Under the pieces are notes generated by a model. The model was not told the DNA's origin, made no database searches, and saw only the letters and a program-made list of their open reading frames with translations. The position numbers and the translations under genes are program-made. From Dysidea avara (taxonomy: Eukaryota; Porifera; Demospongiae; Dictyoceratida; Dysideidae), in assembly GCF_963678975.1 (NCBI RefSeq), contig NC_089272.1:18489399-18553398 (forward strand): a stretch of 64,000 bases of DNA. Direction: 5' to 3'. The first letter of the stretch is position 1, and every line of letters begins with the position of its first letter. This document shows positions 1,116 through 59,630 of the stretch, one piece after another.

Positions 1116-1757
1116 TATCTAATCCCAGTTTAACTATACCTAATCCAAACACTCAGATAGTTGGTCAGTCATTAACACTTGAGTGTATTGTGACTACTGT
1201 GAGAGGTATCACCAGTAGAGTGAATATTGTGTGGAGTAGAAGTGATGGAATACTTGAGACTATTACTGGAGTTGACTCAAACTTTTCAAGTGATAATTAT
1301 ACAGTGTATTTGACTTTCTATGCCATCCCATTATTGAGTACAACTGATGATGGTAGAGCATACCAGTGTGAGATAGTGATCAATGCCAGTCCACCAGTTA
1401 TGGCTACTGGTAGTGTCACACTGGATGTTACAGTTCCTACTCCTACAGTCAGTATAACACCATCTGGTTCTACACAAGGAGCTATGGTAGGTAGTCCTCA
1501 AGATATCCAGTGTATAGTGAGTACAGTTAGTGGAGTGGAGTTGAGTTCAGTAATGATAAGTTGGATGGGACCTGGAGGAGACACTATTACAAATGATAGT
1601 AGAGTGACCATCAGTCCAACCAGTGGTAGTGGTAACAATTACACTAGTAGTCTCCAGTTTAAGTACCTGATGGAGGGAGATGAGGGTGCATATGAGTGTA
1701 ATGTGATGATACTGGAAACTACTGCATCAACAAATGTTGAGATAGAAATGCTTATAA
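1116..1757 (+). CDS. Ig-domain exon pair alpha-1 (fused A+B), internal exon of large Ig gene
   Basis: A 642 bp phase 1-1 exon (214 codons) encodes two Ig-like domains of an extracellular adhesion or recognition protein. The acceptor AG is at 1114-1115 and the donor GTAAGC starts at 1758. Domain A (about residues 1-104) has Cys24, Trp40 and Cys85 in TTDDGRAYQC, the canonical strand B, C and F residues. Domain B (about 105-214) has Cys133, Trp150 and Cys195 in EGDEGAYEC. The A-B junction reads straight through D-V-T-V-P-T-P-T at the place where the beta and gamma pairs carry a small intron. The variable block after Trp40 contains S-R-S-D-G-I-L-E-T. It opens the first alpha-beta-gamma cassette, and upstream exons lie outside the window. 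Domain class is secure; function is inferred. Confidence 0.9.
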
Positions 1758-2926
1758 GTAAGCTGCATATTTAATAAAACTAATACATGCATTCACCTTA
1801 AATATAAGCTAGAAAGATGTAGTACAAAACATGTAGTTTAAAATGAATCATATTGCCAATGGCAAAAGACATTGCTGCTCATGAATAGACTGACTGTTGA
1901 CTGGCTGTACATGAACAGACTATTGAAAAACTTAGCTTGTCCACACTGTAAGATTGCTTTTGCAAGCTCTATGGTAAGCCATATAGGCAGTCTAAGACTT
2001 TGATTAAAGTCTGTCCAACATGTATATTAATGTAATATAGTGCAGGTTGTACAAATACATTGTATTATTATACTTTTGTGAGTGAACTAGCACACAAGTG
2101 CTCATGCCCAACTGTACTTTGTTTTTGCACAAATTGTTAAATTCATGCTCCATAAAATTTGCTCTCATTTCTCTTGTTGTATGTCACTCACTGCATTTGG
2201 TGAAAGTCCACTGCAAAAAGAACTTGAGTATGAAAAGGGCATATACTCGAAAGTAAATATAACTGGTGACTAAAAGAGCTGAGATTAGTGGTTAAGGATC
2301 ACTGTTAATGTAACTAACTGCACTTGTGACCAAGTTTTATAAAACTGATCATCTGACAAAACCAAACTAACACCATCAGTGGGTAGCTACACTGCCATAC
2401 TACTTGTTTTAAGACTTACTATTACTGAAACAAGATTAGGTTAGTTTTACGAGCCCCTATTTAGGGTGGTGTGACAAGCTTTAATGGCAATTATGGCCTT
2501 GGAAAGGACCATCTTGATGAGAACCAGTAGTACACTCGTGGATGGCTTACTAATTTTGGCCATATGTTAGCTGTGTTGATTCTGTTACATATCAGCCACG
2601 AAGAAACCAGCACAACCATACACCTTTGTGCCTGGGCTTCAGTTAATGTTCTTGCTTATTTTGAAGTCTGTCTTCCACCCCACCACCCCTACCCTCCACT
2701 CCTTTGTAAGCATTTGTGATACTGCAAAACTAGTCAATATTTTAATCTTGTTTGTTACTTTCATGAACACAACTATTTTTACAGCCAAACTGTTTTATCA
2801 TCAGTATAACATTTACAGAAACTAATTCAAGAAAATACATTGTAAGCTTCTATAGTAGAATTTGACAAATTTATTTCATAGAACAACTCAACTAATGATC
2901 TGCTGCTTGATACTCGCTATTACAAT

Positions 2927-3524
2927 AGACAAATTCCATAATAAGGCTTTATTGCATATAGAAATAACTGTTGTCACTAGCAACCTGAATTTCCCATTAT
3001 TTTTAGGTGATAACGTCTAAAGTAACGTCTCCAAATTTTGAAAGGATAGCATATATATGTCATAAGATATGATAATTTGAAATTTTCAGTTTTCCCATAC
3101 ATATCTATGTGAGAGGGCTACAGTTGCCCCTTCTGGGCAGTCACAAAAATGAGGTATTTCAACATATTCAAAAACCATAAATTTAAAAGTACATATATCT
3201 CAAAATTACATAATTTGTAGGTGTGAATGTCAACAATAATCTCTCCAAGTTTTAAATGGATAGTGTATATAGGTCATAAGATATGGCATTCTTTGAATCC
3301 CATGATTTGTGTGATTACCGAGAAGGGGCAACTGTTGCCCCTCTCATTGACAATGTATGCAAAAATTGCAACTTCAAAATGTCATATCTCATGGCTTATA
3401 TATGCTATCCTTTTAAAATTTGGAGAGGTGACTTAAGACATTGACGCCTACAAATAATGTAAAATTTAGGTTGCTAAGGGCAACGGTTGATTTTTTCATT
3501 ATTATGAAATTTGTCCATTATGTA
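2927..3524. repeat. Foldback (long inverted repeat) element
   Basis: The left half (about 2927-3130) pairs with the reverse complement of the right half (about 3330-3524). Shared words include TAGCAACCT near the ends, GTCTCCAAATTTT/CTCTCCAAATTTT and GGATAGCATATATA. The two arms flank a centre with short GGGCAACTGTTGCCCC-type palindromes. It is probably a non-autonomous DNA transposon. No open reading frame of interest and no target duplication were resolved. Confidence 0.6.
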
Positions 3525-3752
3525 TAGCCAGATAGTCTAGCAGGAAAAGTTCTGTATTATTATTCAGAGCCAGAGCCCAGAGATTTTGAGTGGTCAGGCC
3601 ATGCAATGCATAGAGATCATAGTCATGCATACTACTTTTTAATGATCTGATACAATATTAAAATCAGCAATTATAATACCGCATGCATGTGCTAAGCAGA
3701 TGCATGCGGTATACATTGACATGCTAAGCTAGTGGCTAAGCTAGTAGCTAAG

Positions 3753-7263: not shown

Positions 7264-7584
7264 TTCCAATAACAAGAGTTAATCTAACTACTCCCAACAC
7301 TCAGATAGTTGGTCAGTCACTAACACTGGAGTGTAGTGTGATTACTGTGAGAGGTATCACCAGTAGAGTGGATATTGTGTGGAGTAGTGATGATGGCTAT
7401 CAACTGAAAAGAAATGAAGGAGTCAGTTTTAACTACATCATGGACAACTCAGTAGTTTATACAACTAGATATACTATCCCACAGTTAAGCACAACTGATG
7501 AAAATAGAGCATACCAGTGTGAAGTAGTGATCAACAGTAATTCATCAATTTCATCTAGTGGTAATGTTATTCTGAATGTTACTG
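7264..7584 (+). CDS. Ig-domain exon, A domain of pair beta-1
   Basis: A 321 bp phase 1-1 exon (107 codons) for one Ig-like domain: acceptor TTTTTATAG before 7264, donor GTAGGT at 7585. Cys24, Trp40 and Cys86 are in place; the F-strand motif reads TTDENRAYQC, with Asn replacing the usual Gly. The ATG at 7215 lies in the intron, so the hydrophobic stretch it would encode is the polypyrimidine tract and not a signal peptide. The end G-N-V-I-L-N-V-T-G is followed by an intron of 15 kb before the next Ig exon at 22579, whereas sister pairs have an A-B intron of 54-60 bp. Confidence 0.88.
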
Positions 7585-7842
7585 GTAGGTTTCAGTTAAT
7601 GTAATTTATTGCAACACAATAAAAAATGAAGTTAACATGCTTAATGAGTTTATAAACTTAATTGTATTGGAAGACCTATTTGCTTTGCTGTCAATTGTTT
7701 TAATTCATGGTACGTTAAATGCAAAGTTTGTATATAATTTGGTTTATGCAGTACCTTATTATGGTAACCCATCATTTCCTCAGTTGTCTTTCCCAAAAGA
7801 AATGTATGTAACTGGGAGGCAAAAAATTGTAAATTTAAACAA

Positions 7843-8139
7843 GTAGAATAAGGATTGAAGTTGTGATTCTTAAAAAAAAACTGCGTAAACAAGAAATCAT
7901 AGGGATGGTGATTCACAATACTACTTAATACATCAATACAAGCCAAGTAGCTTGATTTGTGTACATTGAATTTAAGATTCTTATTTCGACTGTTCAATAA
8001 AAAGCCGAAATAGGAATCTTAAATTCAATGTACACAAATCAAGCTGCTTGGCTTGTATTGATGTATTGTGAATCACCATCCCTATTACTTTTTGTTTATG
8101 CAATTTTTTTCAGAATCACAACTTCAATCCCTATTCTAC
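7843..8139. repeat. Near-perfect foldback (about 140 bp arms)
   Basis: GTAGAATAAGGATTGAAGTT at the left returns inverted as AACTTCAATCCCTATTCTAC at the right, and the arms keep pairing inward through AATTCAATGTACACAAATC to a small loop near 7990-8005. The arms differ at only a few bases, so the element is young. It has no coding content and would fold into a long hairpin if transcribed with the intron. Confidence 0.85.
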
Positions 8140-8394
8140 TTCATTACATTTACGGTTTTTTGCTCCCCTAGTTTCTGAAATTTTTTCATGTCGATGGCAA
8201 CACAATTTTATGGCAGGTGTGCACTGCATGCAGTAACACTGTATAGTACTGCTGCATGGATTTCATGATGTAACTTGTCCATACACACACTGAAAATAGC
8301 AAATCAAATTTACCATACACCAGGTGTAAATAAAATTTGACAAATTCACACTCACTGGTCTTAATAAAATAAATGTTAAAAAGCAAGCAGTTGC

Positions 8395-9052
8395 CAGTGT
8401 CGAGAATAACGCGCTACAAAAGTAACGCATTGCATAATAGTTGTTACATTTTGTGATTTCAGGTAATATAACACGCTACTATTCATAGTCTAGTAATATA
8501 ACTTAAGTTACTTTCAAGGAACCCATTGTTCGTTATATTAGTAATAAAAGTAACGTGTTATTACTACGTAACGAGTTACTATTACAGTTCGTTAGAAACG
8601 TGTAGCGATATTCATAACACATTACCAGGTCCATTACTAACCAATTAGTGTTACTCAGCAGTTTAGTAGCTGCAGTAATCTACTGTCCCGATCCCATATC
8701 AATAAAATCATCCATATTAGTTCACACCTCAGACAACTGGTCACGTGATTTGCCAGCAAGGTTTAGGTATGGCTTAAGTAGTAAAAATAATGAACATCTC
8801 TAGATTCTCTACACAGATGCAAGAAGCCAGTAGCTATATTTAGAGGAGTGTTTACTATATGCTAGCTCAATAACTAACATGCAAGATGTAAAGGAAAGGT
8901 GTATGGTCAGAGCAAAAGTAACTTAATGTAATATATTAAGTTACCTTTCATTTGGATCATGGAGTAATATGTAACTGTAACTTATTACATTGCCCAAAAG
9001 TAAAGAGTAATATGTAATATATTACACTGACAAAGGAACTTTCCCAACACTG
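8395..9052. mobile_element. hAT element of the CAGTGTTGGG type
   Basis: It starts CAGTGTCGAGAATAACGCG and ends TTCCCAACACTG. The exact 8 bp duplication GCAGTTGC flanks it at 8387-8394 and 9053-9060. The interior is full of GTAACGC/GTTACTTT/TAATATGTAA words, typical of this widespread non-autonomous hAT group. No open frame for a transposase is present. Confidence 0.85.
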
Positions 9053-9360
9053 GCAGTTGCATAGACTCCACATCACTGGCTTTTGAGGTGCTTATTTACA
9101 GGGCCGGCTCTGGGAAAATTGGGTTGGGTGGGCCATTCATGTTCAGTGGTAGGTAGTGTGTGAAGCACACTCAGCATGCTCCTGTTAGGGGGTCCGGGGA
9201 GCGTGCTCCCCCAGGAAAAAAATTTAATAATCAACTAGGAAATACCATCTAGAAGCATATTTAACCTAATTTCAGTTGGGCATAGTTATCCGATATTACA
9301 ATCAATAACTACATTGAATTCATTCATTACCAGCTGCATGTATAAGCATTCAATCTATAA

Positions 9361-9745
9361 GGCCACTCCAAATAAATTCTCTGCTTCCGGTCCACCGCCC
9401 GCATCTGGTTATTGTCAGCTCTAAATTATTTCATCATTCCGTATTCTTTCATTATTTTCTGGTTATTCTTGCATACTGACAGGCCTATCTTGAATTAGTG
9501 TCGGCTCATGTGTCAGTAGTTCGGCACGGACTTCACGTTTGTGCTATTTTGCAACTTAAAAAGGAAAAAAACAAGCTTAAGCATGCTTTTATGCAGCTTT
9601 TTATGGTTTTTCCAATTGCCATGCAGGCAAATAATGACTTGAAAATATGTCAATACTATAACGAAATAATGGAAATGAACCGCCCGCCCGCATGCAAATA
9701 TGCCTGAGTCCAGGACGGGAAACAGAGAATTTATTTGGAGTGGCC
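9361..9745. mobile_element. PIF/Harbinger-type MITE, copy 1
   Basis: The terminal repeats begin GGCCACTCCAAATAAATTC and the element sits between TAA and TAA, a TWA-type 3 bp duplication typical of PIF/Harbinger. Subterminal GCGGGCGG tracts are present. A copy in opposite orientation is at 28340-28723. Both copies can encode the same short C-terminal peptide NEIMEM-(N/Y)-RPPACKYA, but the upstream frame differs, so I do not call a gene. Confidence 0.82.
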
Positions 9746-10067
9746 TAATCTTATTGGCCAGTTGCTAGATGAATAATGAGCACAGTACTGTTAGCTACTG
9801 TAATAGTGATGTGGCCTAATTTGTACTACATAAACAATAAGGCACCCACAAATATGCTCTGCTAAGACTTTTCCGTAATACTCCGTGTTTGAGAGACTGA
9901 TACACTTGTAGTACAGTATCTAAGTCCTCTAACCTACTTATGCAGTACAGACTGGTGCTTAGTATAATTTACAAGAAGTTTTGGTAGGTTCGAGTGTAAG
10001 CTTTACTAAAATAGCAGCACTTGCACGCGTATTTGTATGGCTTCTCGTACTGTTAGTCTATTTTGAT

Positions 10068-10640
10068 TATTATTATTATTATAAAAATACACACACAGTT
10101 TATTAATGACTAATTATATAAACTGGTAAGAGTCAGTTTCAGCTCGAACACTATCCAGTACCTGAGAGCTGTAGCGCCTGGTGAAAGATTGAAGCTGTAC
10201 CAAACATAGGCGGTGGAAGGGGGGGGGGGGGGGGGGGGGGTAGGGGGCTTAGCCCCCCCTCAGAATGATATCACATCGAAATTATCCTTCTTGGAGTGGG
10301 GCTGAAACCGTGATAAAGATCGAGATACTCTAAAGTCTAATAGAGCAGTCGCTCTAATAGAGCAATGAGTATGTAGCGAGCTATGTAATGATTTTTATGT
10401 AGTTTATCAGCTATAAATACGTAGCTGGTGAGGTGGAAAGCTATTGACAGGTGGTTGTGGCCTTTTTTTTTTTTGGTCTCACTTTACCAAACCAGAGATA
10501 AGTCTGGGTCAGCCCAGCCCCCCCTCATATCAACTACTTCCTCGCCCCTGGTACCAAGTAGAACAAGCCTTTGCAGATGGAAATATTTGACGTCGTGTAA
10601 ATCGAGTAAGTCAACGTACTGGGAAAAATTCTTATATATT
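10068..10640 (-). pseudogene. Non-LTR retrotransposon reverse-transcriptase tail, copy 1
   Basis: On the minus strand the frame reads Y-V-D-L-L-D-L-H-D-V, then L-Q-R-L-V-L-L-G-T-A-S-I, then L-Q-L-S-G-T-G and stop. This matches copy 2 at 10683-10990 (L-Q-K-T-A-L-L-G-T-A-T-I). It is the extreme C-terminus of a reverse-transcriptase polyprotein common in marine invertebrate non-LTR elements. A MITE at 10205-10550 splits the L-G-T-A motif. Upstream parts are missing, so it is a 5'-truncated dead copy. Confidence 0.65.
10205..10550. mobile_element. hAT MITE (GGCGG-ended), copy 1
   Basis: It starts CATAGGCGGTGGAAGG and ends CTTCCTCGCCCCTG. The flanks GTACCAAA and GTACCAAG give an 8 bp duplication with one mismatch. 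Inside are a run of about 24 G, the CTCTAATAGAG motif, and a T tract followed by GGTCT. It is closely related to 12515-12871. Confidence 0.82.
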
Positions 10641-10682
10641 ATTATTAAATTAATCATAGAAACATGTAAAATACATACATGA

Positions 10683-10990
10683 ACTGGTAAAAGCGTTTAT
10701 AGCTCAGAGTGCTACCCACACCCTGAGAGCTGAAGAACTTTTCTTAAGATGGTTGCGGTTCCCAATAGAGCTGTCTTCTGTAATAAGTAGAAGGTAAGAT
10801 TCAAAAGTTCCAAAAAACCCTGAAATCTCTTAGAAATAGAGCCAATAGCTCCAATTACTACAGGAACCATCAATGTTTTCTTTTACCATAATCTTTCTAG
10901 TTCGACTCTTAAGTCCTGGTATTTAGAGAGCTTTTCCTCTTCCTTACCAGATAGATGCTTGTCAGCAGGAATAGATACATCAATCATCAT
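10683..10990 (-). pseudogene. Non-LTR retrotransposon reverse-transcriptase tail, copy 2
   Basis: The minus strand reads D-V-S-I-P-A-D-K, then KYQDLRVELERLW followed by a stop where a Lys or Trp codon would be expected, then VVPVVIGAIGSISKRF and L-L-G-T-A-T-I-L-R-K-V-L. These are hallmarks of a retrotransposon polyprotein C-terminus I recognise from cnidarian and sponge genomes. Truncated upstream near 10990 by CAT/ATT microsatellites. It has at least one in-frame stop. Confidence 0.7.
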
Positions 10991-11135
10991 CATCATCATC
11001 ATTATTATTTTTATTTATTTATTTTTTTATTAACAACATATATATACTTTAAAGCATACATACAGGAGATTCAAATCAATGTCACTCGAGTTCAACTATT
11101 ATTATTGTTATTATTATTATTATTATTATTAGACT
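10982..11135. repeat. CAT and ATT microsatellites
   Basis: (CAT)n at about 10982-11002 runs into ATT-rich sequence, and a clean (ATT)n tract lies at about 11095-11132. These mark the junction between two retrotransposon fragments and probably arose at their 3' tails. Confidence 0.85.
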
Positions 11136-11372
11136 TTACAGTATATACAAGGGTGAAGTGACACAAGGAAGGAGATACAAAAAGAAAAGGGTGTATGCTG
11201 ATGGTCTGGTAGCAACCTGTGCTGCCAGCCATAAGATTAACTACAATTAATTACATAACTATACTTACAAAACAGAAAACAAAAGTTTTACTTACAGAAA
11301 AAAGAAAGAAGAAAACGAAGCTACTTAAACTACTTATTAAAAATTACAGGAGTTATAATTATAGCACATTTA

Positions 11373-12130
11373 TTACAAGGACACAAATAAGAAAAAAGTA
11401 CAGGGATTATCAGGGTTGAAATGATGAATAAAATTGTTGTATAAGTGTTTGTAAATTATTTGCTTGTTTGTTGAAACGGAAAGGGTGCAATCAACTGGGG
11501 GTAGGAAGTTCCAGAGCTGAGCTAGTCTGTAAAAGTATGAATGGCTAGTAACATTGTTTAAGGCAGATTTGTGGCCTTTGTGCTCTAACTTGTTGAATGT
11601 TGATGACTGAGTAGGACCTGTAGCAAATATAATATAGTTGTGAATATTAAAACGTGTAGATGGTAACTTCAAAGACTTCAAGCAAAATACAATATCAAAA
11701 AGCTCTAAGATGTACATCAGTGGCAGTATTTGAAGTTTAACTAGGCGATCGAAAATAAGAAGAGTGATAATCATTTAATATAAATTTGCTAGACCTTCTT
11801 TGAACCTGTTCTAATATAAGTATGTCTGTTGATAGGTGAGACCTCTAAACTGCATGGTGAAGAATAAGATAACTGTGACCTGACCTAAGTTAAATAGAGC
11901 TTTTTCTTAGCCATAGGGTTATTCAAACTACTAAAGGTCTGTCAAAACTTTTGTATGCTGTAGCAGTTATGTAAGAAATGTGAGAAGTCCGTGTCAGGTC
12001 TGAAGATATAAGGACTCCTAGGTCCTTTTGTAATTGCTTTATAGGAATATCAGGACCATCTAGGTGATACTGAGCATGAAACTTACATTTAAAACTCAAG
12101 TAGTTACTTTTTATGGTGATCTAGTCAAGT
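11373..12130 (-). pseudogene. Non-LTR retrotransposon reverse-transcriptase tail, different family
   Basis: Minus-strand sequence reads KDLGVLISSDLTRTSHI near 12010-12060, a reverse-transcriptase thumb-region motif, then decays with stops. From 11774 to 11373 it stays open: L-P-L-M-Y-I-L-E-L-F-D, a Ser/Asn/Lys-rich stretch, Y-R-L-A-Q-L-W-N-F-L-P-P and F-N-P-D-N-P-C-T-F. This is the C-terminal domain of CR1/L2-like elements. The 5' part is missing. Confidence 0.72.
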
Positions 12131-12271
12131 TAACTGTATAGTTGGGAAAATGTTGGGTGGGCCATGGCCTACTCCACAGCTGGCCTTGTATTGACATTTG
12201 ACAAATTTAATGAATATGTTCATCAAATTTCAAAACATGCAATACATTTTAATTATGCTGTGCCTAGAGTC

Positions 12272-12320
12272 ACGGCACCGTGACTGGACATTTTGCTGCT
12301 AAAGTCACAGCACAGTCATC
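12272..12320. repeat. Perfect 8 bp-arm palindrome and imperfect repeat
   Basis: AGTCACGG-CA-CCGTGACT is an exact inverted repeat with a 2 bp centre. AGTCACAGCACAGTCA follows about 30 bp later. It could be a protein-binding site or the tip of an unrecognised element; nothing else supports either. Confidence 0.5.
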
Positions 12321-12481
12321 CAGAATTCACACACTAGTTGTATGAAGGTAAGTGTTTGTTGAGTTTGAGGCGAGCTAGGGTTGGCAGGAGTCTAGTATTC
12401 CCCGAGTATTCGACTTGAGGGCACGTGCCTAGTAGTATACCCCAAGCATTCGACTTTAGGGGATGCTCCTTGTACTTTTAG

Positions 12482-12506
12482 AGTTAGGGTTAGGGTTAGG
12501 GTAAGG
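12482..12506. repeat. Interstitial telomere-like repeat
   Basis: About three and a half units of TTAGGG, then a variant TAAGGG, lie just left of the hAT MITE at 12515. TTAGGG is the usual metazoan telomere unit. A short interstitial tract may reflect break repair or retrotransposon-linked addition. Confidence 0.8.
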
Positions 12507-12514
12507 GTTCAGGT

Positions 12515-12871
12515 CATAGGCGGCGGAAGGGGGGGGGCTAGGGGGCTAAAGCCCCCTTCGGTCTGCTGAGGGGGGGGCTAAAATGATATCACACCGAAAT
12601 TATCTTTCTTGAAGTGGGGCTGAAAACCGTGATAAAGATCGAGATACTCTAATAGAGCAGTCACTCTAATAAAGTAGTCAGTGTGTAGCGAGCTATGAAA
12701 GGATTTTTATGTAGTTTATCAGCTAGAAATGGTAGCTGGTGAGGTAGAAAGCTCTTGTCAGTTGGTTGTGACCTTTTTTTTTTTTTTTTTGGTCTTACCT
12801 TACCAAACTATAGAAATAAGTCTGAGTCAGCCCAGCCCCCCCCCTCATATCAACTACTTCCTCCGCCACTG
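12515..12871. mobile_element. hAT MITE (GGCGG-ended), copy 2
   Basis: It starts CATAGGCGGCGGAAGG and ends CTTCCTCCGCCACTG. An exact 8 bp duplication GTTCAGGT flanks it (12507-12514 and 12872-12879). The interior matches 10205-10550 block for block: G tract, GATATCACA, CTCTAATAGAG, GTAGCGAGCTATG, T tract and GGTCTTAC. No coding capacity. Confidence 0.9.
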
Positions 12872-12964
12872 GTTCAGGTTTAGTTTCTTTTTTACTTGGT
12901 GTCATTTATATAGGCTTCTTCGTAAATGACATATATAAGGTACAAACTAAGGGAGTAGGGTAGT

Positions 12965-13130
12965 TGGGACCGCAGTGATACAGTGGTAGAGCGCTGGGCT
13001 AGAGTATGGGACCTCACGGGTTTGAGCCTCGCTTTAGCAAAAAAAAAATTTTTTTTAGGTTTTTTGTTTAAGTTTTTTTCATTCAGGTGATTGCCATGAC
13101 TCTAGGCACAGCCTTTTAATTAAGATACAT
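12965..13130 (+). repeat. tRNA-like (SINE-type) module, copy 1
   Basis: GTGGTAGAGCGCTGG resembles an A box and GGGTTTGAGCCTC a B box, about 40 bp apart, followed by A and T runs and a tail GCCATGACTCTAGGCACAG. The tail recurs after a similar module at 20152. No full cloverleaf is formed, so I read it as a SINE head rather than a tRNA gene. Confidence 0.6.
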
Positions 13131-14957: not shown

Positions 14958-15133
14958 GAATAATTTGAAATATGATTGTTTTGAAATATGATTGTTTTGG
15001 TGGTGAATAATTTGAAATAATGAGAATAATTTGAAATATGATTGTTTTGGTGGTGAGAATAATTTGGTGGAGAATAATTGTTTTGGTGGAGAATAATTTG
15101 AAATATGATTGTTTTGGTGGTGAGAATAATAGG
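14958..15133. repeat. Degenerate tandem array inside the transposon gene
   Basis: The words AATAATTTGAAATATGATTG and TTTTGGTGGTGAGAATAATT alternate in incomplete copies. The array sits exactly between the N-terminal and C-terminal coding parts of the transposon gene and may be the scar of an internal deletion. Confidence 0.8.
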
Positions 15134-15617
15134 TGTCTTTGCTTGTTCACACATATCTGGAAACTGGTAATTAAACTTAAATGTACCTCTGAGCATTGCC
15201 CTAATCATAACACGGAGGTAACAAAATACCCTTCTACGTTTTCCTTCAGCTCTGGATTAGATAACTTTAATGAAATTTTTCCTATAGCTGGAGATATGGT
15301 TGGTTACTGTGGTGCAGAATTTCATTGCCAACCACCAAATGAATCTCTCCATGCAGTTACTGACCGATTAAATTTAACTGGCAGAAACAGAGAAACATTT
15401 TATGAGTGCCGTGGTGTACCACAGGTAATGGCATCGTCATTTCTTAATCGAGTGCCTTGGATGATCCCGATTGATATCCAGTCCTTGACTGGTAGATCAA
15501 TATTGACAATTCCAAAAGTTTTAACTATATATGGTCATGGATATCAACTAGCTGGCTGCAGTGTTTGTAGTGACAATCATTTTACTGCAGTTTGCTTCTG
15601 GTATGGTCAAACATTAT

Positions 15618-18887: not shown

Positions 18888-19038
18888 CAAACACATTTAT
18901 AGCAGGAAACTAACAGCACCATCGTGTTCCTCGTCCCAAGAAACCCTAGAAACAATGTAATTGTTTGATCAAACACTCGTACGGCAACGAATCGATTGTG
19001 CCATCTTCCCAATCAAGGGGTAGTCATCTTCATACCAC

Positions 19039-20045: not shown

Positions 20046-20151
20046 TTTTAAAACATTAGGTTAAGTTAGGGTAATATGGATTAGATATTATAGTGATTTA
20101 CATTTGTGACATTTAAATATGGCAAAAATAAGTACTTGGGAGCTTGCAGCT

Positions 20152-22578: not shown

Positions 22579-22902
22579 TTCCCACCTTCGATGTATCAAT
22601 AGTCCCATTTGGTCCAATTGATGATGGTGTGGTAGGTAGTCCTAAGGAGATACATTGTACAGTGAGTACAGTTAGTGGAGTGGAGTTGAGTTCAGTAATG
22701 ATAAGTTGGATGGGACCTGGAGGAGACACTGTTAGAAATGATAGTAGGGTGACTATTAGCCCAACTGCTTCACTTATTAATGATTACATCAGCACTCTTG
22801 AGTTTGCCTACCTGATGGAGGGAGATGAGGGTATATATACTTGTGATGTGATGATACTGGAAACGCCAGGATCAGATTTTATAGAAATAAGTAATCTAAC
22901 AG
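22579..22902 (+). CDS. Ig-domain exon, B domain of pair beta-1
   Basis: A 324 bp phase 1-1 exon (108 codons): acceptor TTTTGCAG before 22579, donor GTGAAC at 22903. Cys27, Trp44 and Cys89 are in place with EGDEGIYTCD. It opens V-P-T-F-D-V-S-I-V-P-F, the beta signature shared with 50521 and 56771, and differs from alpha/gamma B domains by D-Y-I-S-T-L-E-F in strand E. Its natural A partner is 15 kb upstream at 7264. Confidence 0.9.
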
Positions 22903-24716: not shown

Positions 24717-24722
24717 TAAGCC

Positions 24723-29937: not shown

Positions 29938-30258
29938 TGCCTACAACATATAATTTAAGCCTCATTGCACATCATATTCAGAAAGTTGGTCAACCTTTAA
30001 CACTGGAATGTAGATTGATGGCAGTGAGAGGCATCACTAGTAGAGTTGATTTTGTTTGGAGTAGAGATGGTGCTAAGCTCCAGAAAAGCAAAAAGTTTGG
30101 CAGAGACTTTACAATATTAAACTTAGATATCTACACTGACACTTATACCATTTCTCCACTGAGTGTATCTGATGATGGTAACACGTATCAGTGTGAGGTG
30201 GTAATTAGCATCTATCCACCTCTAAAAGAATTTGTTAATGTCACATTGGATGTCACTG
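29938..30258 (+). CDS. Ig-domain exon, A domain of pair gamma-1
   Basis: A 321 bp phase 1-1 exon: acceptor TTTAG before 29938, donor GTATAG at 30259. It opens V-P-T-T-Y-N-L-S-L-I-A-H-H, the gamma signature also found at 50938 and 58931. The F strand reads S-V-S-D-D-G-N-T-Y-Q-C. It is the most diverged gamma A domain (L-M-A-V-R-G instead of V-T-T-V-R-G). Variable block: S-R-D-G-A-K-L-Q-K-S-K-K. The ATG at 29913 is in the intron. Confidence 0.9.
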
Positions 30259-30313: not shown

Positions 30314-30637
30314 TTCCTACTCCTACAGTCAGTATAACACCATATAGTCCTATACAAGGAGCTATGGTAGGTAGTCCTCAAGATATCCAGTGCACAGTGA
30401 GTACAGTTAGTGGAGTGGAGTTGAGTTCAGTAATGATAAGTTGGATGGGACCTGGAGGAGACACTATCACAAATGATAGTAGAGTGACCATCAGTCCAAC
30501 CAGTGGTAGTGGTAACAATTACACGAGTAGTCTCCAGTTTATGTACCTGATGGAGGGAGATGAGGGTACATATGAGTGTAATGTGATTATACTGGAAACA
30601 ACAGCATCTGATTTTGTAGAAATGGATGTCATTAGTG
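30314..30637 (+). CDS. Ig-domain exon, B domain of pair gamma-1
   Basis: A 324 bp phase 1-1 exon after a 55 bp intron: acceptor TTTCTGCAG, donor GTGAGC at 30638. From P-T-P-T-V-S-I-T-P to C-N-V-I-I-L-E it is nearly identical in DNA to alpha B domains and to 59307, although its A partner belongs to a different subtype. The tail (T-T-A-S-D-F-V-E-M-D-V-I-S-G) is its own. N-glycosylation sequons N-D-S and N-Y-T are present. It closes the first cassette. Confidence 0.92.
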
Positions 30638-36778: not shown

Positions 36779-37417
36779 CTCCTGTACCCAATGTTTATTT
36801 AACTGCTCCTAACACTCAGATAGTTGGCCAATCACTAACACCGGAGTGTAGTGTGACCACTGTGAGAGGTATCACCAGTAGAGTGGATATTGTGTGGAAG
36901 ACTGGAAATTCGATATTAGAGGCAATTGAAGGGACAAATGTCTCATCTAATGAGAGTCATGTCACATATTTATTTTCATATATCATTCCACTACTGAGCA
37001 CAACTGATGATGGTAGAGTGTACCAGTGTGAGGTTGTGATCAACACTAGTCCACCAGTTATGGCTACTGGTAGTGTCACACTGGATGTTACAGTTCCTAC
37101 TCCTACAGTCAGTATAACACCATCTGGTCCTACACAAGGAGCTATGGTAGGTAGTCCTCAAGATATCCAGTGTACAGTGAGTACAGTTAGTGGAGTGGAG
37201 TTGAGTTCAGTAATGATAAGTTGGATGGGACCTAGAGGAGACACTATTACAAATGATAGTAGAGTGACCATCAGCCCAACCAGTGGTAGTGGTAACAATT
37301 ACACTAGTAGTCTCCAGTTTATGTACCTGATGGAGGGAGATGAGGGTACATATGAGTGTAATGTGATGATATTGGAAACTAATAGATCAAATTTTGTTAA
37401 CCTGAACAACCTCACTT
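36779..37417 (+). CDS. Ig-domain exon pair alpha-2 (fused A+B)
   Basis: A 639 bp phase 1-1 exon (213 codons): acceptor TTTTTCTGTAG before 36779, donor GTAAGT at 37418. Both domains keep the Cys-Trp-Cys core. Changes from consensus: S-L-T-P-E-C (Leu to Pro just before the first Cys) and W-M-G-P-R-G-G. Variable block: W-K-T-G-N-S-I-L-E-A-I-E-G. Tail: T-N-R-S-N-F-V-N-L-N-N-L-T. From the second half of A to C-N-V-M it differs from 52832 by only a handful of bases. It opens the second cassette. Confidence 0.92.
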
Positions 37418-44564: not shown

Positions 44565-45209
44565 TAACCACTCCTTACAACACCAGTGTAACTGTTCTCA
44601 ACAGTCAGCTAGTTGGTCAGTCACTAAAACTGGAGTGTAGTGCGACTATTGTGAGAGGTATCACCAGTAGAGTGGATATTGTGTGGATAAATAATGGTTC
44701 AAATTTGGACATGATTAAGCATGTGAACATTTCTTTGTTAAGAGGAAATACTGCAATATATTCAGCTTTCTACACACTTCCATTACTGAGAACAACTGAT
44801 AATGGCAGAGTGTTCCAGTGTGAGGTAGTGATCAACACTAATCCGCCAGTTATGGCTACTGGTAGTGTCACACTGGATGTTACAGTTCCTAATCCTACAG
44901 TCAGTATAACACCATCTGGTCCTATACAAGGAGCTATGGTAGGTAGTCCTCAAGATATCCAGTGTACAGCGAGTACAGTTAGTGGAGTGGAGTTGAATTC
45001 AGTAATGATAAGTTGGATAGGACCTGGAGGAGACACTATTACAAATGGTAGTAGAGTGACCATCAGCCCAACCAGTGGTAGTGGTAACAATTACACTAGT
45101 AGTCTCCAGTTTATGTATCTGATGGAGGGAGATGAGGGTACATATGAGTGCAGTGTGATGATACTTGATAATGCCACATCATCTACAACTGAAGTAGAAG
45201 ATATGTTAG
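44565..45209 (+). CDS. Ig-domain exon pair alpha-3 (fused A+B)
   Basis: A 645 bp phase 1-1 exon (215 codons): acceptor TTTCCTAG before 44565, donor GTAATT at 45210. It opens V-T-T-P-Y-N-T-S-V-T-V-L-N-S-Q-L-V, the most diverged alpha linker. A-domain F strand is T-T-D-N-G-R-V-F-Q-C. Variable block: W-I-N-N-G-S-N-L-D-M-I-K-H. B differs by T-A-S-T-V-S, L-N-S and N-G-S (a sequon in place of N-D-S). Tail: L-D-N-A-T-S-S-T-T-E-V-E-D-M-L-G. Confidence 0.92.
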
Positions 45210-46225: not shown

Positions 46226-46873
46226 TTTCCACTCCTAATATGAATTTAACTGCTCCCAGCAATCAGATAGTTGGTCAGTCACTAACACTGGAGTGTAGTG
46301 TGACTACTGTGAGAGGTATCACCAGTAGATTGGATATCGTGTGGAGTAGTGGTGGTGTAGAATTACAAAGAATATCAGAAATGAATGTTAGTTTTACAAA
46401 TAACAATTCTGCTACCTATATATCTACTTACACCATCCCACAACTGAATACAACTGATGATGGTAGAGTGTACCAGTGTGAGGTAGTGATCAACACTAGT
46501 CCACCAGTTATGGCTACTGGTAGTGTCACACTGGATGTTACAGTTCCTACTCCTACAGTCAGTATAACACCATCTGGTCCTATACAAGGAGCTATGGTAG
46601 GTAGTCCTCAAGATATCCAGTGTACAGTGAATACAGTTAGTGGAGTGGAGTTGAGTTCAGTAATGATAAGTTGGATGGGACCTGGAGGAGATAATATTAC
46701 AAATGATAGTAGAGTGACCATCAGCCCAACCAGCGGTAGTGGTAATGGTAACAATTACACTAGTAGTCTCCAGTTTATGTACCTGATGGAGGGAGATGAG
46801 GGTACATATGAGTGTAATGTGATGATACTGGAAACCAATCAATCACACTCTACCAAACTAAGCAACTTAACAG
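46226..46873 (+). CDS. Ig-domain exon pair alpha-4 (fused A+B)
   Basis: A 648 bp phase 1-1 exon (216 codons): acceptor CATTGTAG before 46226, donor GTAAGG at 46874. The apparent leader encoded from the ATG at 46189 crosses the acceptor and is not a signal peptide. B carries a two-residue insertion (S-G-S-G-N-G-N-N) from a 6 bp slip, and G-D-N-I-T-N-D gives an extra sequon. Variable block: W-S-S-G-G-V-E-L-Q-R-I-S-E. Tail: T-N-Q-S-H-S-T-K-L-S-N-L-T. Confidence 0.92.
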
Positions 46874-49757: not shown

Positions 49758-50136
49758 TATTAGGGTAGTTGACTGCTCTATTAGAGTGTTTCAACTTAAA
49801 CCTTTGAAAATCAATTCAAAATCTCCCTGAATATACTTGACTAGTTTTAGAACCCACCCTGAATCTGCCCCTGTTGTAAGACTCTTCAGTAAGCGTGCTT
49901 TTTATTGCATAATTAATATGATTTACGTACCTATAATACTTAGTGTTTTGGTGGGTGCCCTTTATTTTGAGGAATCCCTACTATGCAGTACTACTGTACT
50001 ACAAAATAAAAATTTTTTTGGTGTATGTAGCATTCAATATGCAATATGCATTCACAATTATTTGTTATTGATAGTAAGAATGCTCCTATATGAGTATTTT
50101 GTACCTTGTGTATAATGTGTTATATCTGAAATGCAG

Positions 50137-50460
50137 TACCTTCAAAGCCTTACAATATCAGTGTAGTAAATTTCACTGATCAGATAGTTGGTCAGTCACT
50201 AACACTGGAGTGTAGTGTGACTACTGTGAGAGGTATCACCAGTAGAGTGGATATTGTGTGGAGTAGTGGTAGCTTGGAAATACAAAGAATTAATGAAAGT
50301 GATGCTATTGTCTCCAATGAGAACTCTACAGTGTACAGAACTGTATATACCATACCACTATTGAGCACAACTGATGATGGTAGAGTGTACCAGTGTGAGG
50401 TAGTGATCAACACTAGTCCACCAATTTTAGCCAGCAGTAATATCACTATAAACACCACAG
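50137..50460 (+). CDS. Ig-domain exon, A domain of pair beta-2
   Basis: A 324 bp phase 1-1 exon: acceptor ATGCAG before 50137, donor GTCTGT at 50461. It opens V-P-S-K-P-Y-N-I-S-V-V-N, shared with 56393. Core Cys-Trp-Cys intact with STTDDGRVYQC. It ends S-S-N-I-T-I-N-T-T-G, with two sequons. Variable block: W-S-S-G-S-L-E-I-Q-R-I-N-E. Confidence 0.92.
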
Positions 50461-50520: not shown

Positions 50521-50844
50521 TTCCCATTCCTGGTGTTTCAGTGATACCATTTGAATCAATTCAAGGAGCTATGGTAGGTAGTCCTCAAGAAATACTCTGT
50601 ACAGTGAGTACAGTTAGTGGAGTGGAGTTGAGTTCAATAATGATAAATTGGATTGGACCTGGAGGAGGCACTATTACAAATGATAGTAGAGTGACCATCA
50701 GCCCAACCATTTCGGTGAATAATGATTACATCAGTACTCTAGAGTTTACCTACCTGACGGAAGGAGATGAGGGTGCATATACTTGTGCTGTGATGTTACT
50801 GGAAACTACTGCAGCTAAAATTATTGAAATAAGGAATCTTACAA
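50521..50844 (+). CDS. Ig-domain exon, B domain of pair beta-2
   Basis: A 324 bp phase 1-1 exon after a 60 bp intron: acceptor TTTGTTTCAG, donor GTAGGT at 50845. It opens V-P-I-P-G-V-S-V-I-P-F. Trp lies in M-I-N-W-I-G-P-G-G-G; F strand reads EGDEGAYTCA. Tail: T-T-A-A-K-I-I-E-I-R-N-L-T. Only 93 bp separate it from the next A exon, the most compact part of the gene. Confidence 0.92.
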
Positions 50845-50937: not shown

Positions 50938-51258
50938 TACCTGCAACTTATGGCTTGAGTCTCATAGCACATCATGTTCAGATAGTTGGTCAGTCACTAA
51001 CACTGGAGTGCAGTGTGACTACTGTGAGAGGTATCACCAGTAGGGTGACTTTCATATGGAGTAATGATAGAACCATTCTGAAGGAGGAAGAAACAGATAT
51101 CCAAAGTTTTGATATCCAAAACTTGAAGTTATACTCAAACAGTTATACCATTTCACAATTAAGCACTACTGATGACGGTAAGACATACCAGTGTGAGGTA
51201 GTGATTGATGCTAGTCCACCGATTATGGACTCTGGAAATGTTACACTGGATGTCACAG
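50938..51258 (+). CDS. Ig-domain exon, A domain of pair gamma-2
   Basis: A 321 bp phase 1-1 exon: acceptor TATTTAG before 50938, donor GTAAGC at 51259. It opens V-P-A-T-Y-G-L-S-L-I-A-H-H-V. Strand C reads V-T-F-I-W instead of V-D-I-V-W. Variable block: S-N-D-R-T-I-L-K-E-E-E-T-D. F strand TTDDGKTYQC. Confidence 0.92.
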
Positions 51259-51312: not shown

Positions 51313-51636
51313 TTCCTACTCCTACAGTCCATATAACACCATCTGGTCCTATACAAGGAGCTATGGTAGGTAGTCCTCAAGATATCCAGTGTACAGTGAG
51401 TACAGTTAGTGGAGTGGAGTTGAGTTCAGTAATGATAAGTTGGATGGTACATGGTGGAGACACTATTAGAAATGATAGTAGAGTGGCCATCAGTCCAACC
51501 AGTGGTAGTGGTAACAATTACACTAGTACTCTCAAGTTTGCACACCTAATGGAGGGAGATGAGGGCATTTATGTTTGTAATGTCATGATATTGGAAATTA
51601 TTGCTAAGGCCTTTGTGGAAATACACAGGATTTCTG
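51313..51636 (+). CDS. Ig-domain exon, B domain of pair gamma-2
   Basis: A 324 bp phase 1-1 exon after a 54 bp intron: acceptor CATCTGTAG, donor GTAAGT at 51637. It has W-M-V-H-G-G-D-T-I-R-N where all other gamma and alpha B domains have W-M-G-P-G-G-D-T-I-T-N, so the C-C' turn is altered. F strand EGDEGIYVCN. Tail: I-I-A-K-A-F-V-E-I-H-R-I-S-G. It closes the second cassette. Confidence 0.92.
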
Positions 51637-52831: not shown

Positions 52832-53473
52832 TTCGCATTGCAAATGTCAGTGTAACTGCTCCCAACACTCAGATAGTTGGTCAGTCACTTACACTGGAGT
52901 GTAGTGTGACTACTGTGAGAGCCATCACCAGTCGAGTGGATGTTACATGGATTACTGATGGCTCTGAATTACAAAGAATAAATGGAATTAATGCAAGTTT
53001 CACAAGTAACAATTCTGCGATGTATGTATCCACTTACACTATTCCACTACTGAGCACAACTGATGATAGTAGAGTGTACCAGTGTGAGGTAGTGATCAAC
53101 ACTAGTCCACCAGTTATGGCTACTGGTAGTGTCACACTGGATGTTACAGTTCCTACTCCTACAGTCAGTATAACACCATCTGGTCCTATACAAGGAGCTA
53201 TGGTAGGTAGTCCTCAAGATATCCAATGTACAGTGAGTACAGTTAGTGGAGTGGAGTTGAGTTCAGTAATGATAAGTTGGATGGGACCTGGAGGAGACAC
53301 TATTACAAATGATAGTAGAGTGACCATCAACCCAACCAGTGGTAGTGGTAACAATTACACTAGTAGTCTCCAGTTTATGTACCTGATGGAGGGAGATGAG
53401 GGTACATATGAGTGTAATGTGATGATACTGGAAACTAATAGATATGTTTCTATTGAATTAACCACTTTAACTG
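52832..53473 (+). CDS. Ig-domain exon pair alpha-5 (fused A+B)
   Basis: A 642 bp phase 1-1 exon (214 codons), donor GTAAGA at 53474. It opens V-R-I-A-N-V-S-V-T-A-P-N-T. A reads T-T-V-R-A-I-T-S-R-V-D-V-T-W, with Ala and Thr changes around strand C; F strand TTDDSRVYQC lacks the usual Gly. Variable block: I-T-D-G-S-E-L-Q-R-I-N-G. Tail T-N-R-Y-V-S-I-E-L-T-T-L-T. It opens the third cassette. Confidence 0.92.
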
Positions 53474-56392: not shown

Positions 56393-56716
56393 TACCTTTG
56401 AAGCCTTACAATATCAGTGTGGTAAACTCCACTTCTCAGATAGTTGGTCAGTCACTAACACTGGAGTGTAGTGTCACTACTGTGAGAGGTATCACCAGTA
56501 GAGTAGATATTGTGTGGAACAGAAGTGATCAGATGCTTATCACTGTTTCTGGGGTCAATATAAGTTTTTCAAGCAACAATATTACTATATATTCATCTTC
56601 TTATACTATCCCACAATTGAGCACAACTGATGATGGCAGAGTGTACCAGTGTGAGGCAGTGATCAACACTAGTCCATCAATTTCAGTCAGCAGTAATATC
56701 ACTCTACTTAATATAG
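56393..56716 (+). CDS. Ig-domain exon, A domain of pair beta-3
   Basis: A 324 bp phase 1-1 exon: acceptor ACACAG before 56393, donor GTCTGT at 56717. It opens V-P-L-K-P-Y-N-I-S-V-V-N-S-T-S-Q. Core intact with STTDDGRVYQCEA. Variable block: W-N-R-S-D-Q-M-L-I-T-V-S-G-V-N-I-S, close to alpha-1 in its first residues. It ends S-S-N-I-T-L-L-N-I-G. Confidence 0.92.
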
Positions 56717-56770: not shown

Positions 56771-57094
56771 TTCCTATTCCTGATGTTTCAGTGATACCAT
56801 TTGGATCAATAGAAGATGGTATGATAGGTAGTCCTCAAGAAATACACTGTATAGTGAGTACAGTTAGTGGTGTGGAGGAGAGTTCAGTAATGATCAGTTG
56901 GTTGGGACCTGGAGGAGACACTATTAAAAATGGCAGTAGAATGATCATCAGCCCAATTACTTCAGTTGACAATGATTACTTTAACACTCTTGAGTTTACT
57001 TACCTGATGGAGGGAGATGAGGGTATATACACTTGTGATGTGAATATATTGGATACCACTGCATCCAAGATTACTGAAATAGGAAATCTCACTG
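56771..57094 (+). CDS. Ig-domain exon, B domain of pair beta-3
   Basis: A 324 bp phase 1-1 exon after a 54 bp intron: acceptor ATTTCTTTAG, donor GTAAGC at 57095. It opens V-P-I-P-D-V-S-V-I-P-F-G-S-I-E-D-G. S-G-V-E-E-S-S replaces S-G-V-E-L-S-S. F strand EGDEGIYTCD. Tail: T-T-A-S-K-I-T-E-I-G-N-L-T-G. Confidence 0.92.
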
Positions 57095-58930: not shown

Positions 58931-59251
58931 TGCCCACAACATATGGCTTAACTCTCATAGCACATCATGTTCAGATAGTTGGTCAGTCACTAACACTGGA
59001 GTGTAGTGTGACTACTGTGAGAGGTATCACCAGTAGAATGAGTTTTATTTGGAGTAGTAATGGTACTGTTCTCAAAGTGGAAGAAGTGAACATCCAAGAT
59101 TATACTTTACAAAACTTAAATATATACTCCAGCACTTACACTATTGCACTACTGGGTACTGAAGATGATAGAAAGTCATACCAATGTAAAGTATTGATTG
59201 ATGCTCATCCACAAATTATAGAGTTTGGGAATGTAACATTGGATGTGACAG
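58931..59251 (+). CDS. Ig-domain exon, A domain of pair gamma-3
   Basis: A 321 bp phase 1-1 exon: acceptor TCTTTTTTAG before 58931, donor GTATGT at 59252. It opens V-P-T-T-Y-G-L-T-L-I-A-H-H-V. The F strand is G-T-E-D-D-R-K-S-Y-Q-C-K, with Arg in the usual Gly place. Strand C is M-S-F-I-W. Variable block: S-S-N-G-T-V-L-K-V-E-E-V-N. Confidence 0.92.
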
Positions 59252-59306
59252 GTATGTAGTAGATTTTCTCATAGTATAACTTTGCATTAATAATTTATTT
59301 TTGTAG

Positions 59307-59630
59307 TTCCTACTCCTACAGTCAGTATAACACCATCTGGTCCTATACAAGGAGCTATGGTAGGTAGTCCTCAAGATATCCAGTGTACAGTAAGTACAGT
59401 TAGTGGAGTGGAGTTGAGTTCAGTAATGATCAGTTGGATGGGACCTGGAGGAGACACTATTACAAATGATAGTAGAGTGACCATCAGCCCAACTAGTGGT
59501 AGTGGTAACAATTACACTAGTAGTCTCCAGTTTATGTACCTGATGGAGGGAGATGAGGGTACATATGAGTGCAATGTGACGATATTGGAAACTTTTGTAT
59601 CATTTGCAACCACAATAAACAGTGTAATAG
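59307..59630 (+). CDS. Ig-domain exon, B domain of pair gamma-3 (last Ig exon in window)
   Basis: A 324 bp phase 1-1 exon after a 55 bp intron: acceptor TTTTTGTAG, donor GTAAGA at 59631. The core is almost identical in DNA to alpha B domains and to 30314. Tail: T-F-V-S-F-A-T-T-I-N-S-V-I-G, unique. The good donor with phase 1 shows the gene continues beyond it; no further Ig exon, membrane segment or stop-ending last exon was found up to 64000. Confidence 0.92.

Follow-up and report, generated by a model that had tools for sequence, protein, structure and literature searches.

The locus analysed here is most likely that of a giant adhesion or recognition receptor. The window, a stretch of 64,000 nucleotides of DNA of the demosponge Dysidea avara (C1:18489399-18553398, where C1 is NC_089272.1 of assembly GCF_963678975.1), lies in the interior of one apparent gene. 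We propose that this gene probably encodes a single giant type I transmembrane receptor, in which pairs of Ig domains (A and B) follow one another in series and have frameworks kept alike by ectopic gene conversion.

The window contains 17 open Ig exons (Table 1), five with fused A and B domains and 12 with single domains, which together give 11 A and 11 B domains. Each of the 17 is bounded by AG/GT, is in phase 1-1 and lacks stops; joined, they give an open reading of 2363 aa. The eleven phase 1-1 pairs and the extent of the array (first exon start at 1116, last exon end at 59630) are exactly those proposed by an earlier sequence-only reading. Pair 2 is divided by a 15-kb intron, and its B exon scores 198 against a profile of the B domain made from all 11 copies in the window, P2B itself included. 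A search against Rfam gave zero window matches at gathering scores.

Table 1. Ig exons of the window (positions count from the first nucleotide of the window)
Feature	Position	Strand	Basis or remark
P1 fused A+B Ig exon	1116..1757	+	phase 1-1; Pfam Ig_3 and ig above cut-off
P2A Ig A exon	7264..7584	+	phase 1-1; Pfam ig above cut-off
P2B Ig B exon	22579..22902	+	phase 1-1; all Pfam Ig-type families below cut-offs
P3A Ig A exon, type 2, 'IAHH'	29938..30258	+	splice/frame analysis
P3B Ig B exon	30314..30637	+	55-bp intron after P3A
P4 fused A+B Ig exon	36779..37417	+	splice/frame analysis
P5 fused A+B Ig exon	44565..45209	+	splice/frame analysis
P6 fused A+B Ig exon	46226..46873	+	splice/frame analysis
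P7A Ig A exon, type 1, 'PYNISV'	50137..50460	+	Pfam ig above cut-off
P7B Ig B exon, type 1	50521..50844	+	splice/frame analysis
P8A Ig A exon, type 2	50938..51258	+	splice/frame analysis
P8B Ig B exon, type 2	51313..51636	+	splice/frame analysis
P9 fused A+B Ig exon	52832..53473	+	splice/frame analysis
P10A Ig A exon, type 1	56393..56716	+	splice/frame analysis
P10B Ig B exon, type 1	56771..57094	+	splice/frame analysis
P11A Ig A exon, type 2	58931..59251	+	splice/frame analysis
P11B Ig B exon, type 2	59307..59630	+	Pfam Ig families just below cut-offs

Along the apparent gene, three VWD-C8-TIL units are followed by 33 exons that encode 39 Ig domains (18 A-B pairs, two extra A domains and a stalk Ig), then by a second Ig, five FN3-like pieces, a TM exon (C1 18603848-18604012) and a short tail, so that the array lies between a single VWD head and a single FN3-TM tail. 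With several Ig domains, then FN3 repeats and a single TM, the gene has the DSCAM/RPTP-like backbone of an Ig-FN3 transmembrane cell adhesion receptor. A single open frame holds both the last TIL unit and, 82 bp further on, the first Ig A exon. The tail contains the tyrosine sites NPYA and EAIYSSV, and its last 63-aa stretch ends in a stop. One of the five FN3-like pieces was scanned with Pfam and scored 24.4 bits for fn3, just under the cut-off of 25; the remaining four were assigned by similarity to the D. avara RefSeq model P0129, which has five fn3 stretches. A simple scan for signal peptides gave weak candidates only, among them an ATG leader at C1:18481165. This in-frame ATG with its hydrophobic leader lies directly before the first Ig exon and would be an alternative start, without the VWD head. 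No RefSeq model of the gene was among the matches listed (proteins of approximately 116-369, 354-1127 and 1770-5633 aa were searched), and a 644-aa query against metagenome proteins gave 7 matches, none of which was recognisable as a spliced transcript of this array.

The array might instead consist of many separate small receptor genes with one pair each, and three small RefSeq proteins (P0124, P0126 and P0121, the last located on C1) do combine two to four such Ig domains with a TM. However, the + strand of the window gave no splice-compatible TM exon, either between the pairs or elsewhere. Every Ig border in the array is phase 1-1, the joined frame stays open over 33 exons, and the gene has a single tail, with a stop, at its 3' end. 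We therefore regard single-pair genes as very unlikely.

A Dscam-like cassette array, in which the pairs would be mutually exclusive or combinatorial exon sets and one gene would yield many receptors, is less remote but still unlikely. Combinatorial inclusion is possible in principle given the phase 1-1 borders, which would allow any pair to be skipped in frame, and a single head and a single tail surround the array. The A and B exons travel together, because 10 of the 13 A-to-B introns (one of the 13 being A to stalk) are only 46-60 bp long, and those that separate one pair from the next are 93 bp to 9 kb long. Furthermore, the variable C'-E region of domain A includes the C'-D loop, which in the relevant part of a Dscam study forms part of epitope II (PMC3236188). 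On the other hand, the same part of that study finds gene conversion absent from Dscam arrays 4 and 6, whereas it appears strong in the D. avara array, and the only sister-gene model of RefSeq that could be placed, P0129 ('cell adhesion molecule DSCAM-like isoform X2', same chromosome), joins A-B-A-B-A in series, albeit over only about 2.5 pairs.

Returning to a serially joined gene, we considered how its exons vary. Three framework 20-mers occur 10, 11 and 11 times in the window with at most 3 mismatches, against 0.00, 0.01 and 0.02 times in dinucleotide shuffles, the first being missing from P3A; the near-identical frameworks described earlier are thus real. The three variable blocks likewise lie where they had been placed: the 5' linker of the exon, the C'-E region of domain A and the stretch after the F-strand Cys of domain B are all seen in the alignment of the 11 A and 11 B window domains. 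The same pattern was found in 106 pairs, namely five window pairs and 101 of 120 listed homologues (19 that were window-encoded or short were left out). Mean column entropy in these pairs was 1.92 (N-term), 0.59 (FW1), 2.31 (VAR), 0.71 (FW2) and 0.62 bits (C-term) in domain A, and 0.45 (core) and 2.46 bits (C-term) in domain B. Only the C'-E block of domain A is internal; the other two blocks are located at the ends of exons.

Silent divergence was clearly unequal between frameworks and blocks, at about 0.05-0.22 in homogenised frameworks against 0.55-0.74 in the A and B blocks; the equality that would have counted against the sequence-only reading was thus not observed. The larger DNA set comprised 59 A and 55 B copies, minus-strand loci included, with a profile score of at least 100 (and at least 95 residues for fetched domains), a set that thus leaves out divergent copies. 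In the 59 A copies pS was 0.166 in FW1 and 0.656 in VAR, and in the 55 B copies it was 0.167 in the core and 0.548 in VAR. The contrast between fused exons (26 of the 54 B copies classified) and split exons was marked: pS of the A C-term was 0.052 in fused but 0.543 in split exons, and that of the first B codons was 0.006 and 0.365, respectively, so that fused exons show a valley of silent divergence at the site of the lost A-B intron. In split exons the A FW2 and A C-term both have pS of about 0.54-0.59; therefore, the sharp borders between frozen and variable DNA that had been described hold in fused exons, but the border after the A block is not sharp in split ones.

Linkage along the exon was then considered with Mantel tests (21 in all, P values uncorrected). 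Distances in the A N-term and VAR were correlated (r=0.57, P=0.001), whereas those in FW1, which lies between them, were decoupled from both (r=0.01 and 0.15), and only 19 of 59 copies had their nearest VAR partner also among the nearest in FW1. Other parts are still linked (A VAR-FW2, r=0.41; A C-term-B core, r=0.56; FW1-B VAR, r=0.34, P=0.033). The introns beside six fused exons could not be aligned (upstream 0.720 against 0.706 shuffled, downstream 0.739 against 0.731). In type 1 and type 2 A exons of the split kind, the flanks on the upstream side were likewise close to the shuffled level (0.755 against 0.730 and 0.691 against 0.717), but the 100 bp downstream exceeded it (0.818 against 0.718 and 0.782 against 0.708) because the short A-B intron brings the B exon into this stretch. 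A runs test confined to silent codons fell short of significance (P=0.087, from 17 sites in five exons). With every polymorphic codon included it was significant (P=0.0005), but there the variable blocks themselves are a confounder. Gene conversion as the process that homogenised the frameworks, one of two causes offered by the sequence-only reading, is supported: silent divergence is unequal, linkage is broken across FW1, fused exons have a valley where the intron was lost, and the diverged introns beside them point the same way. The silent divergence is equal within and between genes, which segmental duplication of old arrays would also fit, and the fused copies could be one clade. GC-biased conversion was set aside, as GC3 differences between blocks were modest and inconsistent.

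It is also conceivable, though improbable, that constraint on silent sites or on the RNA (splice enhancers, selector pairing) keeps the framework DNA alike without conversion. FW1 is frozen in fused and split exons alike over only about 80 bp, and a homogenised tract of this length is short for conversion, so some silent-site constraint is possible. However, constraint would not be expected to freeze a set of codons where the A-B intron is lost yet leave that set diverged where it is present, or to break the linkage across FW1. In addition, RNA folding was normal in four stretches from two pairs (z of 0.31, 0.44, -0.31 and 0.71), and RNA structure as a cause of silent conservation was dropped on this zero signal.

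The other cause that had been offered, diversifying selection on the loops, fared less well. We compared positional homologues (12 A and 11 B pairs); an initial set of 55 A pairs picked by VAR identity of at least 60% was biased towards low pN and was replaced by these. The pN/pS of A VAR was 0.55 (95% bootstrap 0.39-0.76), against 0.3 in comparison, and that of B VAR was 0.87 (0.56-1.29, an interval that includes 1); both intervals are too narrow because similarity, not order, was used to match g2 partners L003 and L021, and one g3 copy recurs in several pairs. Values in the blocks are 1.8-2.5 times those of the framework, and single comparisons exceed 1, as in g3_18573781 against g4_18644587 (11.5/72 N against 0.5/18 S) and in the A N-term, at the exon end, of P9 against P6 (dN/dS 2.25, with 9 silent sites). 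Moreover, an effect of exon edges leaves the internal A block unexplained. Nevertheless, the pooled values show no dN/dS above 1 of the kind expected in binding loops under diversifying selection: pN/pS is below 1 for A VAR and not above 1 for B VAR. A value above 1 also occurs outside the blocks (1.27 in the A C-term of P7 against P10), so small samples mislead. Because silent divergence is raised too, to near saturation in paralogue comparisons, block divergence would mostly reflect age without conversion. The contrast between fused and split exons predicts divergence at exon ends without selection, and that of the two blocks there may partly be such an edge effect. Positive or balancing selection as the main cause of all three blocks is therefore doubtful.

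Based on conversion acting on a serially joined array, we suggest the following course of events. The 11 pairs would be consecutive coding modules of one giant gene, whose array probably grew as single pairs, and also six-Ig blocks (type 1, type 2, fused), were duplicated. Thereafter, ectopic gene conversion would have kept the exon centres alike and spread the intron-less A-B junction to many copies. It would fail close to the ends of the exons, where the introns have lost their match, and also in the C'-E region of domain A, an internal island that had diverged beforehand. With the exons mostly joined in series, the protein would have approximately 6,000 residues and form a heavily N-glycosylated adhesion or recognition rod reaching far from the cell. 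Sequons number 120 in the 4173-aa array against 59 in shuffled sequence, and 1.36 per A VAR against 0.79 (sd 0.10). From Ig topology, the C'-E block of domain A is presumably an exposed, glycan-bearing patch that would differ by position along the rod, and the tail may couple to SH2/PTB-type signalling.

The locus is a good, though unproven, candidate for cell or microbe recognition. A germline-diversified system for self/non-self or symbiont recognition, with exchangeable frameworks, a glycan-bearing C'-E patch of its own in each pair and differences between individuals, is a tentative possibility that we consider rather unlikely. If it were true, some ten giant receptor genes would be involved, of which nine are neighbours, and individuals would vary in patch set, pair number or exon choice. 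Sugars on the moving sites might then belong to the recognition surface, and the intron loss spread through the array via conversion would be a by-product. No second haplotype of the array was recovered from the one assembly searched.

Sponges are central to the origin of animal cell recognition, and to our knowledge the genes behind their self/non-self recognition are still unsettled. The present locus offers a concrete candidate, with about ten giant receptor genes on one chromosome, defined variable patches, a defined tail and positions that can be resequenced. In addition, its fused and split exons provide a natural contrast for measuring how gene conversion comes to a stop at introns and diverged islands. 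A limited search of titles and abstract openings gave no description of these arrays, and neither did the passages seen of PMC12909245, PMC11999971, PMC6208332, PMC11229196 and PMC3236188. The first of these, on the D. avara genome, gives numbers of I-set and V-set genes in the part consulted, and a term search of its main text as accessible returned no 'DSCAM', 'von Willebrand', 'gene conversion', 'tandem' or 'hypervariab'.

Copies of the stalk Ig with 85-100% identity were found in at least 10 places, all on C1 (150 of 559 candidates scored). The ten close copies, nine of which lie at 17.8-19.5 Mb, mark sister genes on the same chromosome, and VWD units occur 5' of five arrays. P0129 resembles the window's gene in its A and B domains, stalk Ig (90% identity), second Ig, five FN3, TM and Tyr tail, but starts with a VWA and an Ig domain instead of VWD-C8-TIL. 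P0128, an RPTP delta-like (LAR-type) protein of D. avara, shares A/B domains, the stalk Ig (56%), the second Ig and five FN3, but has six N-terminal Sushi repeats and two cytoplasmic PTP domains; the window's gene, which stops after the 63-aa tail stretch, is not a LAR-type receptor tyrosine phosphatase.

Among known systems, hemicentin joins an N-terminal VWA to a long Ig array; VWA was seen in the sister model P0129, and the head found 5' of the window's array is VWD-C8-TIL. Sponge aggregation factors are secreted proteoglycans with Calx-beta/Wreath domains and glycans as the recognition surface, unlike this Ig-FN3-TM receptor. Hydractinia Alr genes are small and separate, with proven allelic recognition, whereas those of D. 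avara are giant; both are clustered IgSF receptors in an early-branching animal. Arthropod Dscam has an FN3-TM backbone. According to the parts consulted of a review, aggregation factors serve sponge cell adhesion and 41 Alr members have been reported (PMC11999971). As far as the passages on Dscam go, its arrays share with that of D. avara the tandem Ig exons, C'-D variability and a raised dN/dS below 1 (PMC3236188). However, in those passages Dscam combines mutually exclusive splicing with paralogous exons that diverge without gene conversion, whereas the D. avara array is distinguished by strong conversion, a serial sister model and a VWD head.

We searched an assembly of 550.8 Mb in 108 contigs, in which contig C1 has 65,135,833 bases; the published D. 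avara genome (PMC12909245) has 575 Mb, 162 scaffolds and 15 chromosomes. The window, C1:18489399-18553398, contains 17 Ig exons, all on the plus strand, with 11 A and 11 B domains. Five of them, in pairs P1, P4, P5, P6 and P9, are fused (A and B in one exon), and the others encode single domains. Every one has AG/GT borders, phase 1-1 and an open frame, and when joined they give 2363 residues without a stop. The quoted framework words occur 10-11 times, with practically none expected. These counts bear out the sequence-only reading of eleven A-B pairs with phase 1-1 exons and recurring framework words. All five exon translations tested fell within Ig families of Pfam, three of them above a cut-off, and a profile of 106 pairs found only weak relatives among solved structures, namely PECAM-1 and NCAM (four sequences, best E-value 8e-5). 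From P7 to P11 and in the pairs beyond window position 64000, the array order also shows a higher-order repeat whose unit comprises six Ig domains (a type 1 and a type 2 split pair, with A and B in separate exons, and a fused pair).

The limits of the array were traced after adding 100 kb on either side of the window. The whole array encodes 4173 residues with zero stops, and its first Ig exon shares an open frame with the last TIL, 82 bp away. The plus strand of the window yielded no splice-compatible TM exon, and no convincing signal peptide was found for the window's gene, for which there is one weak candidate. The neighbouring array gene is a mirror image on the opposite strand, tail to tail with the window's gene. 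Among the intron sequences, the 31/61-bp repeat blocks are perhaps a mobile or satellite element, and the minus-strand frames presumably resemble retroelement remains.

Features in and around the window's gene
Feature	Position	Remark
Three VWD-C8-TIL units	C1:18465780-18481134	5' of array; one VWD-C8 and one TIL Pfam-confirmed
Weak signal-peptide candidate (ATG)	C1:18481165	hydrophobic leader directly before first Ig exon
Whole array	C1:18481217-18589560	20 A and 18 B domains plus stalk Ig (39 Ig domains) in 33 exons
Intron splitting pair 2	window 7585-22578	15 kb, several open frames
Frames in pair-2 intron	window 13687-13956, 15035-15676	no Pfam match, two tested
31/61-bp tandem repeats	window 23450-24105, 25255-25816, 27179-28144	three blocks in one intron, repeated flanks
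Long open frames, minus strand	window 33236-35414	up to 321 aa; no Pfam match in three tested
73-bp tandem repeat array	window 38534-38979	about 5 copies, 88% matches
Hydrophobic ORF	window 49831-50112	rejected as TM exon, phases incompatible
Divergent stalk Ig, split Ig, five FN3-like domains, TM exon, tail		3' of array
Stop codon of tail	C1:18604251	
Tail-to-tail array genes	C1:18603848-18619088	about 14 kb apart; identical membrane-proximal Ig order
L021, a sister-gene A copy	near C1:18290118	F-strand Cys lost (QFEV vs QCEV), new Cys nearby
A domain of P0129	C1:19488712-19489029	100% match; adjoining B match and stalk match

Silent divergence (pS) among the 11 window copies was 0.20-0.22 in the first framework block of A (FW1) and the B core versus 0.57-0.74 in the variable blocks (VAR) of A and B, and the B core of the five fused copies gave only 0.066. 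In a larger set from seven arrays, the pS values of 59 A copies were 0.563 (N-terminal block), 0.166 (FW1), 0.656 (VAR, the C'-E block), 0.488 (FW2) and 0.384 (C-terminal block), and those of 55 B copies were 0.167 (core) and 0.548 (VAR). The proposed contrast between low divergence (here in FW1 and the B core) and high divergence (in the variable blocks) is found in both sets. The pooled dN/dS was 0.28-0.61; the few two-sequence subsets above 1 rest on some 9-12 silent sites. Six fused exons are 88.6% identical, and the introns beside them score about as shuffled sequence does (0.720 versus 0.706 upstream, 0.739 versus 0.731 downstream). Given this unequal silent divergence and the unalignable introns beside near-identical exons, the copies look old, with their frameworks overwritten.

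We also compared block distances in 16 A-B couples. Those of the A N-terminal block and A VAR correlate (r=0.57, P=0.001), with the intervening FW1 linked to neither (r=0.01, P=0.48 and r=0.15, P=0.08, respectively), and B core and B VAR are unlinked (r=-0.16). Linkage was seen between A VAR and FW2 (r=0.41) and between the A C-terminal block and B core (r=0.56), among 21 uncorrected tests. The nearest VAR relative was among the nearest FW1 relatives in only 19 of 59 copies. A runs test on all polymorphic codons gave P=0.0005, a value confounded by the variable blocks themselves, and was not significant on the 17 silent codons (P=0.087). Silent divergence within genes equals that between genes, and therefore this test does not tell the reach of conversion.

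Fused and split copies differ where split copies have their intron. The pS was 0.052 in the A C-terminal block of 26 fused A copies versus 0.543 in 32 split ones, and 0.006 in the first codons of 26 fused B copies versus 0.365 in 28 split ones (one A and one B without context were excluded). Fused exons have a valley of silent divergence at the lost intron, rising to both ends and to A VAR. We read this valley as conversion stopping where homology stops, and the intron-less junction as spread by conversion. A merely young clade of fused copies is hard to square with the unalignable introns and diverged blocks. Together, the unequal pS, broken FW1 linkage, diverged introns and fused/split contrast support the earlier suggestion of framework homogenisation by gene conversion. 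If conversion does stop in this way, edge effects at exon ends would account at least in part for two of the three hypervariable blocks. Another cause is needed for the A C'-E block, which lies inside its exon: either a self-sustaining diverged island or selection keeping the block different.

Selection was assessed on positional homologues between duplicated genes (12 A and 11 B, in pairs not fully independent). The pN/pS was 0.55 (0.39-0.76) in A VAR versus 0.30 in FW1 and 0.29 in FW2, and 0.87 (0.56-1.29) in B VAR versus 0.35. Positive selection on the blocks, as earlier envisaged, is not supported by this test, with A VAR below 1 and the B VAR interval including 1. The raised ratios point to a relaxation of constraint, to which a degree of adaptive change may have been added.

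A VAR is enriched in N-glycosylation sequons, with 1.36 per block versus 0.79 (sd 0.10) after shuffling residues within the block, and 49 of 59 copies have at least one; in the 106 pairs, the values were 1.46 versus 0.83, with sequons in 95. Their positions in A VAR vary from copy to copy, and common sequons lie at residues 88 (84/106), 158 (94/106) and 173 (98/106) in P4 numbering. Such enrichment extends beyond A VAR: the A N-terminal, A C-terminal, B core and B VAR blocks also exceed shuffling; FW1 and FW2 showed no excess. The whole array has 120 sequons versus 59 shuffled. Given its enrichment, A VAR looks like an exposed surface that may bear sugars.

A genome search with the B domain gave 649 candidates, and all of the 150 that were scored matched; 115 lie within C1:17.7-19.5 Mb and the others on C1 at 15.3 and 50.2 Mb, C5, C7, C13 and C15. 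Counting each stalk Ig as one gene, and scoring 150 of 559 candidates, we found at least 10 copies with an identity of 85-100%, every one of them on C1 (nine at 17.84-19.48 Mb, one at 15.35 Mb), and at least eight at 57-60% on C5, C7 and C10. Five arrays, at about 17.88, 18.13, 18.25, 18.48 and 18.71 Mb, have VWD units immediately 5' of them; that near 18.25 Mb has a single unit, whose matched stretch contains a stop. Among the 140 matches listed from 200 candidates, no adjoining VWD was found for two other arrays, at about 18.90 and 19.31 Mb. A and B domains are shuffled modules across related D. avara proteins: the DSCAM-like P0129, in which the RefSeq gene model joins A-B-A-B-A-stalk in series; the RPTP P0128, with stalk and FN3s as in the window's gene; the small TM receptors P0121, P0124 and P0126; and P0127, a RefSeq adhesion GPCR L3-like protein from a contig of 39,469,004 bases, with an A-B pair in its ectodomain.

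Beyond the gene anatomy, family, homogenisation and glycosylation-site enrichment observed in the DNA, we suggest that the Ig exons would be spliced in series, that the product may be a long glycosylated rod with patches specific to position along it, and that signalling would proceed via tail tyrosines. The Ig-FN3-TM backbone points to a putative function in adhesion or recognition; that the gene is a recognition system, as the sequence-only reading favoured, seems improbable to us. This kind of gene, the giant Ig-FN3 receptor, is already known, and the window's gene is a novel variant. According to PMC3236188, epitope II of arthropod Dscam behaves alike in dN/dS, and the Dscam exons are described as being without gene conversion, unlike the window's array.
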